Positions 10,617 through 13,816 of a stretch of 47,903 nt of DNA are shown piece by piece; position 1 is the stretch's first letter, and each line of letters opens with the position of its first letter. The notes under the pieces were generated by a model. The model ran no database searches. It was not told where the DNA came from and saw only the letters and a program-made list of their open reading frames with translations. The stretch comes from Metasolibacillus sp. (lineage in GTDB: Bacteria; Bacillota; Bacilli; Bacillales_A; Planococcaceae). Position numbers and translations under genes: made by a program. Location of the stretch: assembly GCF_025291715.1 (NCBI RefSeq), contig NZ_JAMBIZ010000032.1:1-47903 (forward strand), given 5' to 3'.

Positions 10617-10655
10617 AAGGTTGTCGGGAAGTATTTATCCCGACAACTTCTTTTA
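10617..10655. terminator. Bidirectional terminator
   Basis: AAGGTTGTCGGGA pairs with TCCCGACAACTT around an 8-base loop, with T-rich flanks on both strands. It serves the exporter operon and the SDR remnant facing it. Confidence 0.9.
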
Positions 10656-10904
10656 TATTGCTGTATAGCCACCATCTACTAATAACGTTGCACCTGTCAT
10701 AAATTCATTTTCACAAACGAATACACAAGCATGTGCGATTTCCTCTGGCTGACCTAAACGCCCGATTGGGTGGCGTGCCACTAAGCCATCATAAAAATCA
10801 CCAAGTGCCTCTTTGTTGACCATACCTGATTCTACATAGCCTGGGCAAATTGCATTTGTACGAATATTACGCGAAGAATATTCAGCCGCAAGTGATTTTG
10901 TCAT
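10653..10904 (-). pseudogene. Short-chain dehydrogenase/reductase, C-terminal remnant
   Basis: The 83 codons match the last third of a classical SDR oxidoreductase: SLAAEYSSRNIRTNAICPGY, then GRLGQPEEIAHACVFVCE and the C-terminal TGATLLVDGGY. The NAD(P)-binding TGxxxGIG motif and the catalytic YxxxK, which should lie just upstream, are absent, and a TAA stops the frame six codons before the ATG. Full-length relatives have about 250 residues, so this fragment cannot be an enzyme. Confidence 0.88.
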
Positions 10905-11035: not shown

Positions 11036-11794
11036 ATGTGTATTATTGCATTTGCTTATAAAATGCATCCACAACATGACTTGATTGTTATAGCAAATCG
11101 AGATGAATTTTATAAGCGACCGACGAAAGAGCTACATCAATGGGATGATGCGTTACATATTTGGGCAGGGCGAGATTTAGAAAAAATGGGCACATGGCTT
11201 GCTGTTAGCGATAATGGGCGTTTTGCTGCTGTGACGAATTACCGCGACCCGCGTTTACCATTAGTTGGAGAGAAATCAAGAGGACAAGTGCCTGTCAACT
11301 TTATTAATAGCCAGCTTAGTGCTCATCAATTTGCGCAGCAATTACAGCAGGAACGACAGTTGTACGGGGCATTTAATGCCATTTTGTATGATGGTGAGCA
11401 TTTGGTGCATTACAATACGGTGCTAAATGAGCTAATGATTGTGCCACAAGGCATTCATTGTCTATCAAATGCGACGCTTAATACAGCTTGGCCTAAGGTG
11501 GAGCGCTTAAAAGCTAACATGTGTGAAACGATTCAAACAACAACAGAGGAAGAAGCATTATTTGCATTATTAAAGGACACAATAAGGGCAGAGGATCAAC
11601 ATTTACCAGCAACAGGTGTGCCTTTTGAAATGGAGCAAAAGCTTTCACCTATTTTTATTCATTTTGATGGCTATGGCACAAGAGCTTCTACTGTTGTAAA
11701 AAGCACAAGCAATGGCTGGGATATTGCAGAACGCAGTTTTACAGATGGGCAGTACAGCAATGACGTGCGTTTTCTAATTGAGAAAGGGAGATAA
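11036..11794 (+). CDS. NRDE/TANGO2-family protein
   Basis: This protein belongs to the NRDE family, named for the motif seen here as IANRDEF near residue 23. The bacterial function is not settled; eukaryotic TANGO2 is linked to haem and lipid handling. It has 252 residues. I place the start at 11036, because AAGGGGGAA lies 6 to 8 bp upstream while the ATG at 11030 overlaps that site. The chosen start gives Met-Cys-Ile-Ile, and family members conserve Cys2, the proposed Ntn-hydrolase nucleophile. Only 2 bp separate it from the AAA ATPase gene, so the two are translationally coupled. Confidence 0.85.
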   Translation: MCIIAFAYKMHPQHDLIVIANRDEFYKRPTKELHQWDDALHIWAGRDLEKMGTWLAVSDNGRFAAVTNYRDPRLPLVGEKSRGQVPVNFINSQLSAHQFAQQLQQERQLYGAFNAILYDGEHLVHYNTVLNELMIVPQGIHCLSNATLNTAWPKVERLKANMCETIQTTTEEEALFALLKDTIRAEDQHLPATGVPFEMEQKLSPIFIHFDGYGTRASTVVKSTSNGWDIAERSFTDGQYSNDVRFLIEKGR

Positions 11795-11796
11795 AT

Positions 11797-13104
11797 TTGG
11801 CAAAAATGATCAAGATTCAACGTGTAACAATTCGCCACTTAAAAAATGTCAAGCACGGCTCTTTTCAAACGAATACAACACAAGAGAAAGCAAATGTTGT
11901 TGGCTTTTACGGGCAAAATGGCTCAGGGAAAACCGCTGTTGTAGAAGCTTTTCATCTGTTGAAAATATTGCTACAAGCGAAAACGTTACCTGATAACGAG
12001 CAAAGACTTATTTATTTTGAGGAAAAAAGCATTGAATTACACATTGAATTTTTTATCATCAACCAATTTGGAGAATACTATGTGAAGTATTTCGTAGAGC
12101 TACAAGAAGGAATGAAAACATTAAAAGTTTGTCGTGAAGCTTTATTTTATAAAGAAAATAAGCGTGGTAAACGATATAAGGAGCTTGTAGCTAAAGATGG
12201 CAATGACATTTCCATTCGCAATAAAAAAATGCAATCATTTAGCGAAAGTCAGCGTGTGAATATAATGGTAGCTAATTATTTAGCGGAGGAAAATGCAACC
12301 TCCTTTATTTTTCGGAAAGAGCTTGTATTGTCTTGCTCTGAGGAAGAAAAGGAGCTATTACAAAATTTAAGAGTTGATTTTAATAACGACTTCCATGTAA
12401 TTGATACGATTCATTACGGCTTACTTGTTGCAAATCTTGTGATGCCACTTAGCATTCATACGGATGGAATACGAGGAAATATTCCTTATGAATTAAGGGA
12501 TACAATGCTCTTGCCAAGAGATATGTTTGCAACAATTGAAAAGGTCATTACGCAAACAAATATTGTTTTAACAACGATTATCCCAGGGCTAGTAATTAAA
12601 GTTCGAGAAATACATCGAGAGAAAATGCCGAGCGGTGAAGATGGCGTGCGCTTTGAGTTTTTATCAGTAAAAGGTGAAATTGAGCTTCCTTTGCGCAGCG
12701 AATCACAAGGTGTATTAAAAATTATTTCCATTTTAAGCACATTGATTGCCGTTTATAATAATCCGAATGCTTGTGTTGTTATTGATGAATTAGATGCTGG
12801 GATTTTTGAATATTTACTTGGAGAAATACTAGAAGTTATACATGACAATGGTAAAGGACAATTGTTTTTCACATCGCATAATTTGCGCATTTTAGAGGTG
12901 CTCCCTGTGCAAAATTTATGGTTTACGACATTGAATGAGGAGGAGCGCTATTTACAGCTAAAAGGTGTGAGAAAATTAAGCAATGCACGCGATGTCTATT
13001 TAAGGGCAATTCAACTTGGTGGACAGGAAGAGGCAATATACAACGAAACGAACCTATATGATATTAAGAAATCGTTTAGGAAAGCAGGTAAAGTAATTGA
13101 CTAA
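11797..13104 (+). CDS. AAA15/OLD-like ATPase, likely phage-defence effector component
   Basis: This 435-residue ATPase belongs to the ABC/SMC-like AAA15 group used in many defence systems (AbiL, RloA, PARIS AriA, retron ATPases). Walker A is GQNGSGKT (39-46), followed by VVEAFHLLK. The C-terminal half holds an ABC-like SESQGVLKIISIL, Walker B CVVIDELDAG with Asp330-Glu331, and a sensor FFTSHNLRILE. No coiled-coil arm or own nuclease domain is evident. The TTG start at 11797 is preferred because AAAGGGA lies 7 bp upstream; an ATG at 11806 is too far. The gene ends 8 bp inside the TOPRIM-like gene, so the two products probably work together. Confidence 0.85.
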   Translation: MAKMIKIQRVTIRHLKNVKHGSFQTNTTQEKANVVGFYGQNGSGKTAVVEAFHLLKILLQAKTLPDNEQRLIYFEEKSIELHIEFFIINQFGEYYVKYFVELQEGMKTLKVCREALFYKENKRGKRYKELVAKDGNDISIRNKKMQSFSESQRVNIMVANYLAEENATSFIFRKELVLSCSEEEKELLQNLRVDFNNDFHVIDTIHYGLLVANLVMPLSIHTDGIRGNIPYELRDTMLLPRDMFATIEKVITQTNIVLTTIIPGLVIKVREIHREKMPSGEDGVRFEFLSVKGEIELPLRSESQGVLKIISILSTLIAVYNNPNACVVIDELDAGIFEYLLGEILEVIHDNGKGQLFFTSHNLRILEVLPVQNLWFTTLNEEERYLQLKGVRKLSNARDVYLRAIQLGGQEEAIYNETNLYDIKKSFRKAGKVID

Positions 13105-13816
13105 GGCACAAAAAAAGGTTGTTATTTTGTTAGTCGAAGGTGACACGGATGAATTGTTACTGATTGAGCGTTTAAGGCAATTATTTAAGAATAAGGAAAT
13201 TCGCTTTGAGCCACAACATGGCGATATTTTTTATCAACGAGATAAAAAGGAGCAGGCAATCAAAGAGGTCATTGGTGAACGCGTAAAAGAAATATTAATG
13301 AAGCGAAAATTTAAACCATCCAATATTTTAGCAGTGCTGCATATACTTGATACAGATGGCTGCTTTATCGCACCAGCGCATGTAGCAGTCGACACAGAGC
13401 AGTCCAATTTAACACAATATAATGAAGAAAACATAACGGTCAATTCAGAGGAGCAAAAAGGACGAATTGAGGAACGCAATGAAATTCGGTCACGCAACGT
13501 GCAAATGATGAGTAGCACGCAAGCTTTGGCACAGTATGCGTACCAAGCATATTATTTTTCCCGCCATTTAGAGCATGTTGTATTTGATGAAATGAATCCT
13601 TGTCGAGAGGAGAAAGTAGAAAAGATAGAGAATTTTTTAGAGGAGCTTACTATACCAATTGAGCAATTTTTAGCACAGTATATGCCTGTAGGACAAGATG
13701 AGGGGTATGCGACGATGCATCAGGAGAGCTGGGAATTTATAATGGAAAATATCCATTCATTGCAGCGCTACACGAATGTTTCGTTAATGTTTGATTTTTT
13801 GGATCAATATTCATAA
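13097..13816 (+). CDS. TOPRIM-like protein, partner of the AAA ATPase
   Basis: The 239-residue product opens with a beta strand and acidic turn, VVILLVEGDTDE (Glu14), and has ILDTDG (Asp85, Asp87) about 70 residues on. A conserved Glu followed by a DxD pair is the signature of TOPRIM metal sites, as in OLD nucleases, RloB/AbiLii and AriB. The remainder (about 100-239) is acidic and helical, and I do not recognise it. It starts with TTG and overlaps the ATPase gene by 8 bp. The TOPRIM call is inferred from motif order and context, not from a database match. The likely role is the nuclease or toxin half of an abortive-infection pair. Confidence 0.65.
   Translation: MTKAQKKVVILLVEGDTDELLLIERLRQLFKNKEIRFEPQHGDIFYQRDKKEQAIKEVIGERVKEILMKRKFKPSNILAVLHILDTDGCFIAPAHVAVDTEQSNLTQYNEENITVNSEEQKGRIEERNEIRSRNVQMMSSTQALAQYAYQAYYFSRHLEHVVFDEMNPCREEKVEKIENFLEELTIPIEQFLAQYMPVGQDEGYATMHQESWEFIMENIHSLQRYTNVSLMFDFLDQYS

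Follow-up and report, generated by a model that had tools for sequence, protein, structure and literature searches.

A split ABC ATPase and predicted TOPRIM-type nuclease pair that is near-core in two bacterial genera

In PARIS, a two-gene defence system, AriA sequesters AriB, a tRNase, until the system is triggered, according to the available part of one account (PMC12409363). Toxicity neutralisation in E. coli has likewise served to test AAA proteins as the antitoxins to TOPRIM_OLD toxins (PMC10440598). For Cran1, vertical inheritance led to the discovery of an essential cell-cycle role, not of defence, in the section of that study available (PMC12796447). Split ABC ATPase/TOPRIM pairs such as AbiL and PARIS are patchy in their occurrence, whereas the pair described here is kept in every, or nearly every, sampled genome of two genera. 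Given this core-like distribution, the pair may serve resident immunity or may have been diverted to some other cellular task. It thus becomes testable in culturable bacteria whether immune effectors can turn into permanent, inherited immunity or, alternatively, whether OLD-type machines have been absorbed into ordinary bacterial cell biology.

Gene layout and the two encoded proteins

The pair lies in a 47,903-nt stretch of DNA from Metasolibacillus sp. (the window, by which we mean the whole stretch analysed), which belongs to a 3.83-Mb genome in 83 contigs. An earlier note on this DNA had described two TTG-started genes that overlap by 8 bp, and both the genes and the overlap were confirmed (Table 1). 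Translational coupling of the two genes through the overlap is possible. The stop codon of a TANGO2-family gene lies 2 nt before the TTG of the ATPase gene, and the pair is followed, after 14 nt, by a thiolase gene; judging from the spacing, the pair and the TANGO2-family gene may share one transcript. Farther out are ABC-2 transporter genes upstream and a Na+/H+ antiporter-type gene downstream. Because these neighbours are all ordinary genes, we find no defence island around the pair within the window. On the minus strand of the window, at 10653-10904, there is an 83-aa ORF that may be a remnant, its translation resembling the last part of a short-chain dehydrogenase.

Table 1. Features of the pair in the window, and the mobile loci that carry relatives
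Feature	Position	Strand	Basis or conservation
AGGGAG, ribosome-binding-like, 6 nt 5' of the ATPase TTG	11785..11790	+	sequence reading
ABC/SMC-type ATPase, 435 aa, TTG start, AbiLi/AriA-like	11797..13104	+	profile and structure matches
Walker A GQNGSGKT, residues 39-46	11911..11934	+	G39, Q40, N41, G42, K45 invariant in 54/54
ABC-signature-like stretch, residues 302-308	12700..12720	+	E302, S303, G305, K308 invariant in 54/54
Walker B IDELDAG, residues 329-335	12781..12801	+	D330, E331, D333 invariant in 54/54
8-bp overlap of ATPase and nuclease genes	13097..13104	+	ORF coordinates
TOPRIM-like two-metal nuclease (predicted), 239 aa, TTG start	13097..13816	+	motifs, conservation, model
E14 to D18, TOPRIM glutamate and acidic residue at +4	13136..13150	+	conservation, 60 sequences
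DxD motif, D85 and D87	13349..13357	+	60/60 each
E159, proposed second-metal ligand	13571..13573	+	60 sequences: 57 E, 3 D
Mobile loci: plasmids L031, L032, L225; phage L033			

The product of the first gene is an SMC/Rad50-like ABC ATPase. The Walker A and Walker B motifs that the earlier note had named were found, starting at residues 39 and 329, and H361 is also invariant in the alignment of 54 members, which comprises 53 of the 76 genome-contig loci and the window; the ABC-signature-like status of residues 302-308 is our own reading. Among PADLOC profiles, the window ATPase matched AbiLi (2.9e-28), AriA (1.7e-15) and HEC-01A (7.9e-12), with the AriA match confined to a short stretch (residues 274-366) and weaker than that to AbiLi; among Pfam families, AAA_21 (6.5e-13) and AAA_15 (6.6e-8) were both above cut-off. 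The AbiLi profile matched all 54 ATPases scanned at E <= 1e-10 and the AriA profile 49 of the 54 at the same threshold, and 27 of the 54 matched HEC-01A. A structural model of the ATPase (pLDDT 89.8, pTM 0.89) gave 185 Foldseek matches at E <= 0.001, the best of which was Rad50 (E 6.1e-14), followed by chains of the retron protein PtuA.

The second protein is probably a metal-dependent nuclease of an uncharacterised family, and we commit to reading it as a putative two-metal nuclease effector on the basis of its conserved residues. In an alignment of 60 nucleases (59 of the 76 genome-contig loci and the window), the five positions E14, D18, D85, D87 and E159 are acidic in all 60 members: E14 is invariant and position 18 is D in 37 sequences and E in 23. 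The residues invariant across the alignment are E14, G15, D43, D85, D87, G88, H160, K173, W212 and S221. Glu14 and the pair Asp85/Asp87 lie, as noted earlier for this DNA, in the motifs LLVEGD and ILDTDG, which start at residues 11 and 83. The metal-site residues of one class 2 OLD nuclease are given as E400, E404, D455, D457 and E508 in PMC6755086, and the five positions found here parallel them in order and spacing; going by that source, the acidic site also resembles that of RNase M5. The C-terminal 140 residues had been called acidic and without a match to anything. The first part is borne out by 25 D+E versus 10 K+R in residues 100-239; the second holds in that this region has no library matches, but it contains E159 as well as the invariant H160, K173, W212 and S221, and these conserved C-terminal residues are probably catalytic.

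The predicted structure of the nuclease (pLDDT 93.4, pTM 0.90) first alternates strands 7-13, 33-39 and 77-85 with helices 16-29 and 55-70; after an insert rich in strands come helix 118-139, strand 147-154, helix 158-163 and a helical C-terminus. This order is TOPRIM-like, with the Glu past strand 1, the DxD past strand 3 and an acidic helix residue past strand 4; E159 sits in helix 158-163, after the fourth core strand of the model. A Foldseek search of the model against the PDB gave 1167 matches at E <= 10 and none at E <= 0.001; the top match, itself weak, was 8ux9_A, a 306-residue chain of a PARIS complex (E 7.8e-3, probability 0.41, TM 0.23). The TOPRIM core that the earlier note would lead one to expect is thus indicated by element order and residue placement only, and because all PDB matches lie above E 0.001 we infer the fold. 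The single match that Foldseek gave to viral models (E 7.1e-4, TM 0.28) was uninterpretable, and a PDB sequence search with the 60-sequence profile returned an integrin and other chance matches only (best E 0.013).

At the level of families, PADLOC gave no match at E <= 1 for the window nuclease, and neither Pfam nor NCBIfam gave one above cut-off. The sole relevant weak match was to OLD-like_TOPRIM, at 14 bits versus a cut-off of 23.2; Pfam matches to Pneumo_M2 and RNase_PH, under their cut-offs, were dismissed as chance. When all 60 nucleases were compared with Pfam, DUF4276 was matched by 21 (best 4e-5), OLD-like_TOPRIM by 14 and Toprim by 3, among the best 25 of 43 families; in PADLOC, HEC-01B was matched by 15 (best 2.4e-5), mad4 by 5 and AbiLii by 1 (0.029). 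Profile-profile alignment with hhalign gave a probability of 32% for DUF4276 (7 sequences, E 4.9e-4, motif 1 only), 7.4% for RloB (7 sequences, E 0.0048, columns 5-163, low power) and 0.8% for DUF4435 (4 close sequences, low power). With sets of this size (7, 7 and 4), the comparison places the nuclease outside these families and leaves a separate origin unproven. The suggestion that the second protein is new in type agrees with its position outside the PADLOC, Pfam and NCBIfam models searched.

Co-occurrence, distribution and inheritance

We retrieved 79 loci, namely 76 on genome contigs, two on plasmids and one in a phage. The genome-contig loci are mostly from Bacillota, with a few metagenome-assembled genomes from Desulfobacterales, Spirochaetaceae, Collinsella and Candidatus Tenebribacter; the two plasmids and a Clostridioides phage record were added by tblastn, and a Ruminococcus plasmid locus was found with a divergent query. 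Mobile copies are thus carried by the plasmids pFN9A, pY5S7-1 and pRUMAL01 and by one phage record. Among 51 pattern matches in viral contigs, none encoded a relative. The closest named relatives of the window nuclease are from Bacillus ndiopicus (82%) and Metasolibacillus meyeri (80%).

The adjacency on which the earlier note had staked its pairing was found in 78 of the 79 loci, where an ATPase sequence lies immediately upstream of the nuclease; the exception is L068, and L086, L093 and L107 are interrupted by contig ends. In 75 of 76 loci, including the window, 20-36 nt separate the ATPase stop from the catalytic Glu codon, the remaining value being an artefact of a stray motif picked up in L095. 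The distance matrices of the two proteins are correlated (r 0.905, 53 loci, 0 of 2000 permutations). Because the pair recurs in 79 loci and its Walker and acidic positions vary little or not at all, the association is more than chance. The proposal of an ABC ATPase/TOPRIM-type pair of the AbiL/PARIS kind is upheld as regards layout, with AbiLi and AriA profile matches on the ATPase side.

The pair is near-core in two genera and patchy elsewhere. The nuclease is present as one copy in 32/32 genomes of the Lysinibacillus genus (including Lysinibacillus sphaericus) and in 23/25 of the Lacrimispora genus (including Lacrimispora xylanisolvens), in 56 of 261 genomes of the window's family and in at least 5 genomes of its own genus. 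In the phylum sample it was found in 6/199 genomes, the window's own included, and 3 of these 6 are partial matches. The corresponding frequencies are 9/149 for DUF4276, 8/149 for RloB, 5/199 for HEC-01B and 6/199 for DUF4435 (5 above cut-off), and of the 32 Lysinibacillus-genus genomes that all have the pair, 11 encode OLD-like_TOPRIM proteins. Compared with these OLD-type controls, the core-like distribution is unusual.

The sites occupied by the pair are largely genus-specific. A LysM/GH18 gene is downstream or nearby in 17 of 18 Lysinibacillus-type loci (L050-L067), the stretch of the remaining one, L055, ending before the expected position; in two genomes of another genus (G059 and G061) the pair is likewise flanked by groEL and a LysM/GH18 gene. 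In 13 Lacrimispora-type loci, pnp and rpsO lie just past the pair (for example, L070:11464-14110), and neither is shown at L078, L098 or L104. The Metasolibacillus, Sporosarcina and Viridibacillus loci are at other sites, mostly common within each genus. We also observed that a giant gene of the DUF5724/DUF4132/DUF7737 type follows the pair in nine Lysinibacillus-type loci, encoding 1706 aa on the opposite strand at L050:9774-14891.

Within the Lysinibacillus genus, the pair was compared with gyrA in 30 of the 32 genomes, and then in 29 after exclusion of G043, whose pair belongs to a distinct lineage and sits elsewhere, without the common flanks. In the 29 genomes, 12 of 26 splits were common to the pair tree and the gyrA tree, compared with a mean of 0.19 and a maximum of 2 in 500 label shuffles; 9 of 12 well-supported gyrA splits recurred in the pair tree, and conflict was seen in 7 of 204 comparisons between well-supported splits. 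Mantel correlations with gyrA were 0.657 for the ATPase and 0.555 for the nuclease (0 of 2000 permutations each), and with G043 included they were 0.603 (0/2000) and 0.528 (26/2000), respectively. Because the gyrA splits largely recur, yet the G043 lineage differs and some splits conflict, the pair has for the most part, though not entirely, been passed on vertically in this genus. In the window's genus, the pair is subject to purifying selection: compared with four Metasolibacillus relatives, the ATPase had a dN/dS of 0.078-0.115 and the nuclease one of 0.073-0.142, similar to the neighbouring TANGO2-family gene (0.087-0.168) and above the thiolase (0.041-0.132), several of the dS values being above 1 and therefore rough. 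A LexA-type box, with the consensus taken as CGAACNNNNGTTCG and up to 2 mismatches allowed, was absent from the 200 bp 5' of the ATPase gene in 76/76 loci.

In four loci (L143, L220, L222 and L223), an uninterrupted ATPase gene accompanies a broken or absent nuclease. The L143 nuclease is in two pieces with nothing past residue 145, that of L220 aligns up to residue 127 in a 155-codon frame, and no nuclease was found beside the L223 ATPase. On plasmid pART37 (L222:3778-3948), the first 57 residues of the nuclease are all that is left beside an open ATPase gene, at a site otherwise 88-96% identical to that of pY5S7-1 (flanks 94-96%). No intact nuclease without an intact ATPase was seen, save where contig ends cut the locus (L086 and L093), and this although nuclease-based searches would favour finding nuclease-only loci. 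Outside this count are L221 (both genes broken), L219 (the stretch ends early), L068 (truncated nuclease, no ATPase in 8.4 kb) and L224. Such one-sided decay fits an effector that depends on its partner, four cases being few and lacking a background estimate.

For the 36 loci without a common site, 148 of 189 neighbouring ORFs were scanned, which yields descriptive figures and not an enrichment, there being no background rate for comparison. PADLOC matches at E <= 1e-15 fell into 37 families, and the Recombinase family was matched by 6 of the 148 ORFs (among the best 25 of 162 Pfam families); a large serine recombinase lies upstream of the pair in L037. Testing ten large neighbour proteins individually identified, in L072, a type I restriction subunit, in L091 a UG5-type reverse transcriptase and in L102 an IetA-like protein. 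The neighbours that matched mad3 and AriA, among the best 25 of the 37 PADLOC families, are possibly no more than common ABC ATPases; we left them out of the defence genes. An interrupted second ATPase copy lies upstream of the intact pair in L072 (3109-4364 and 7659-9711), with 3 stops in aligned pieces that are 75-89% identical and no nuclease piece beside it. On a Cetobacterium plasmid (L224:2037-3850), a distant relative of the ATPase (~26%) accompanies HepT-like and nucleotidyltransferase genes, with cas13c close by; no relative of the nuclease was found near it, and an exchange of partner at this locus is possible.

Proposed resident immunity and its rivals

Starting from the observed gene layout, co-occurrence, active-site residues, purifying selection in the window's genus and core-like distribution in two genera, the best explanation of the pair, and one that we hold to be somewhat better than an even bet, is a split, ATPase-restrained nuclease that acts as resident immunity. 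The two genes would encode a split OLD-type machine in which the AbiLi/AriA-like ATPase, the proposed sensor and restrainer, complexes with the TOPRIM nuclease, the proposed effector, and keeps it inactive. Release would come with a trigger, for which an infection signal is the likeliest candidate; the freed nuclease would then cut nucleic acid (tRNA or DNA) via two metals at E14, D18, D85, D87 and E159. This cleavage would halt phage multiplication and would probably be costly for the host cell. From the model of AriA and AriB and the neutralisation of TOPRIM_OLD toxins by AAA proteins, we infer the release of an ATPase-restrained nuclease; complex formation, the trigger, the substrate and a part in defence are likewise proposals. 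The one-sided decay and the existence of mobile relatives, with recombinases or defence genes beside some loci, also speak for this explanation. In Lysinibacillus, Lacrimispora and probably the window's genus, the pair would be a resident, mainly vertically inherited immunity and not a gene of mobile islands, and resident immunity appears, by a small balance of probability, to be its main benefit. Literature searches, some of whose queries were swamped by unrelated words, found no description of the family and no phage, toxicity or nuclease experiment on it.

Presence in 32/32 and 23/25 genomes is unusual for a defence system (OLD-like TOPRIM proteins are in 11 of those 32) and counts against the phage-defence role that the earlier note proposed, as do the ordinary genes around the pair in the window and at the genus-fixed sites. 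The same single-copy presence, in genera of different classes, would fit a pair domesticated for housekeeping work in DNA processing, the cell cycle or RNA turnover where it is core, and this reading draws further on the shared groEL-side neighbourhood in G059 and G061, on the agreement with gyrA (12/26 splits, against a chance mean of 0.19 and a maximum of 2) and on the proximity of pnp and rpsO in 13 loci. It is a serious rival because the Cran1 study used the same sign, vertical inheritance, and so offers a precedent (PMC12796447). Nevertheless, we consider it unlikely on balance: the pair is patchy across the phylum (6/199, its own genome included), has copies on plasmids and in a phage, is broken or partly lost in G174 and pART37, is represented in G043 by a different lineage elsewhere, and lacks a LexA-type box upstream in 76 loci, and its ATPase is nearest to defence models. 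Equally tentative is the idea that the pair was independently domesticated in Bacilli and Clostridia as a core machine, a counterpart of Cran1, with kin on plasmids and phages still serving as defence or stability modules.

The one-sided decay bears on another reading, in which the pair is a toxin-antitoxin-like stability module that persists mainly because the cell is harmed if the ATPase is lost before the nuclease, the host itself gaining little. The four loci that keep the ATPase with a broken or absent nuclease, the reverse never being seen, agree with it, as does the validation of AAA/TOPRIM_OLD pairs by toxicity neutralisation in E. coli (PMC10440598, as far as the source was available). 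However, long retention throughout whole genera under constraint like that of neighbouring genes suggests a benefit, and since nuclease-first loss is possible and seen, addiction alone would not hold the pair intact; we regard this reading as improbable. Still less credible, indeed very unlikely, is that the second protein is another Rossmann-like enzyme or a regulator of the ATPase and not a nuclease. Such a protein would account for the lack of a significant PDB fold match and for the weak, mixed library matches, but not for invariant E14, D85 and D87 and always acidic positions 18 and 159, in the order and spacing of a two-metal TOPRIM site; the best leads from the structure and profile searches, weak as they are, also point to TOPRIM proteins. 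We retain the restrained nuclease acting in resident immunity as our preferred explanation.

Relation to described ATPase-nuclease systems

The closest described systems share the build of the pair and differ in the partner. AbiL (AbiLi/AbiLii, of Lactococcus) and RloA/RloB have the same two-gene build with a TOPRIM-type partner, and the ATPase is AbiLi-like in 54/54 members; however, AbiLii was matched by 1 of 60 nucleases (E 0.029) and not by the window nuclease at E <= 1. PARIS (AriA/AriB), which has been called class 4 OLD, is the same split of an ABC ATPase and a TOPRIM effector, whereas the window nuclease has no DUF4435 match at E <= 1 and the present pair is near-core in two genera. 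HEC-01 and mad3/mad4 of MADS are matched on the ATPase side; on the nuclease side, these models and DUF4276 are matched in some relatives only, the window nuclease matching none of them in PADLOC at E <= 1 or in Pfam.

Among broader surveys, the NetFlax pairs AAA D29 : TOPRIM_OLD also have separate AAA and TOPRIM_OLD genes, with the AAA protein as antitoxin, as PMC10440598 reports, and the NetFlax nodes D60 or M70 could be the same family as the window pair. Cran1 resembles the pair in its OLD-type ATPase and nuclease and its vertical inheritance but is an OLD-family enzyme of Sulfolobales archaea, whereas the window pair consists of two bacterial genes with no known phenotype (PMC12796447 for Cran1). 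The class 4 OLD layout, described there as separate adjacent genes for ATPase and nuclease, is that of 78/79 loci. Because the ATPase is AbiLi/AriA-like but the nuclease falls under the cut-offs of PADLOC, Pfam and NCBIfam, the pair is, judged by profile comparison, an AbiL/PARIS-like split layout with a different predicted TOPRIM family. The layout is already known; to it the nuclease appears to add a TOPRIM family that is unnamed in the profile libraries searched.
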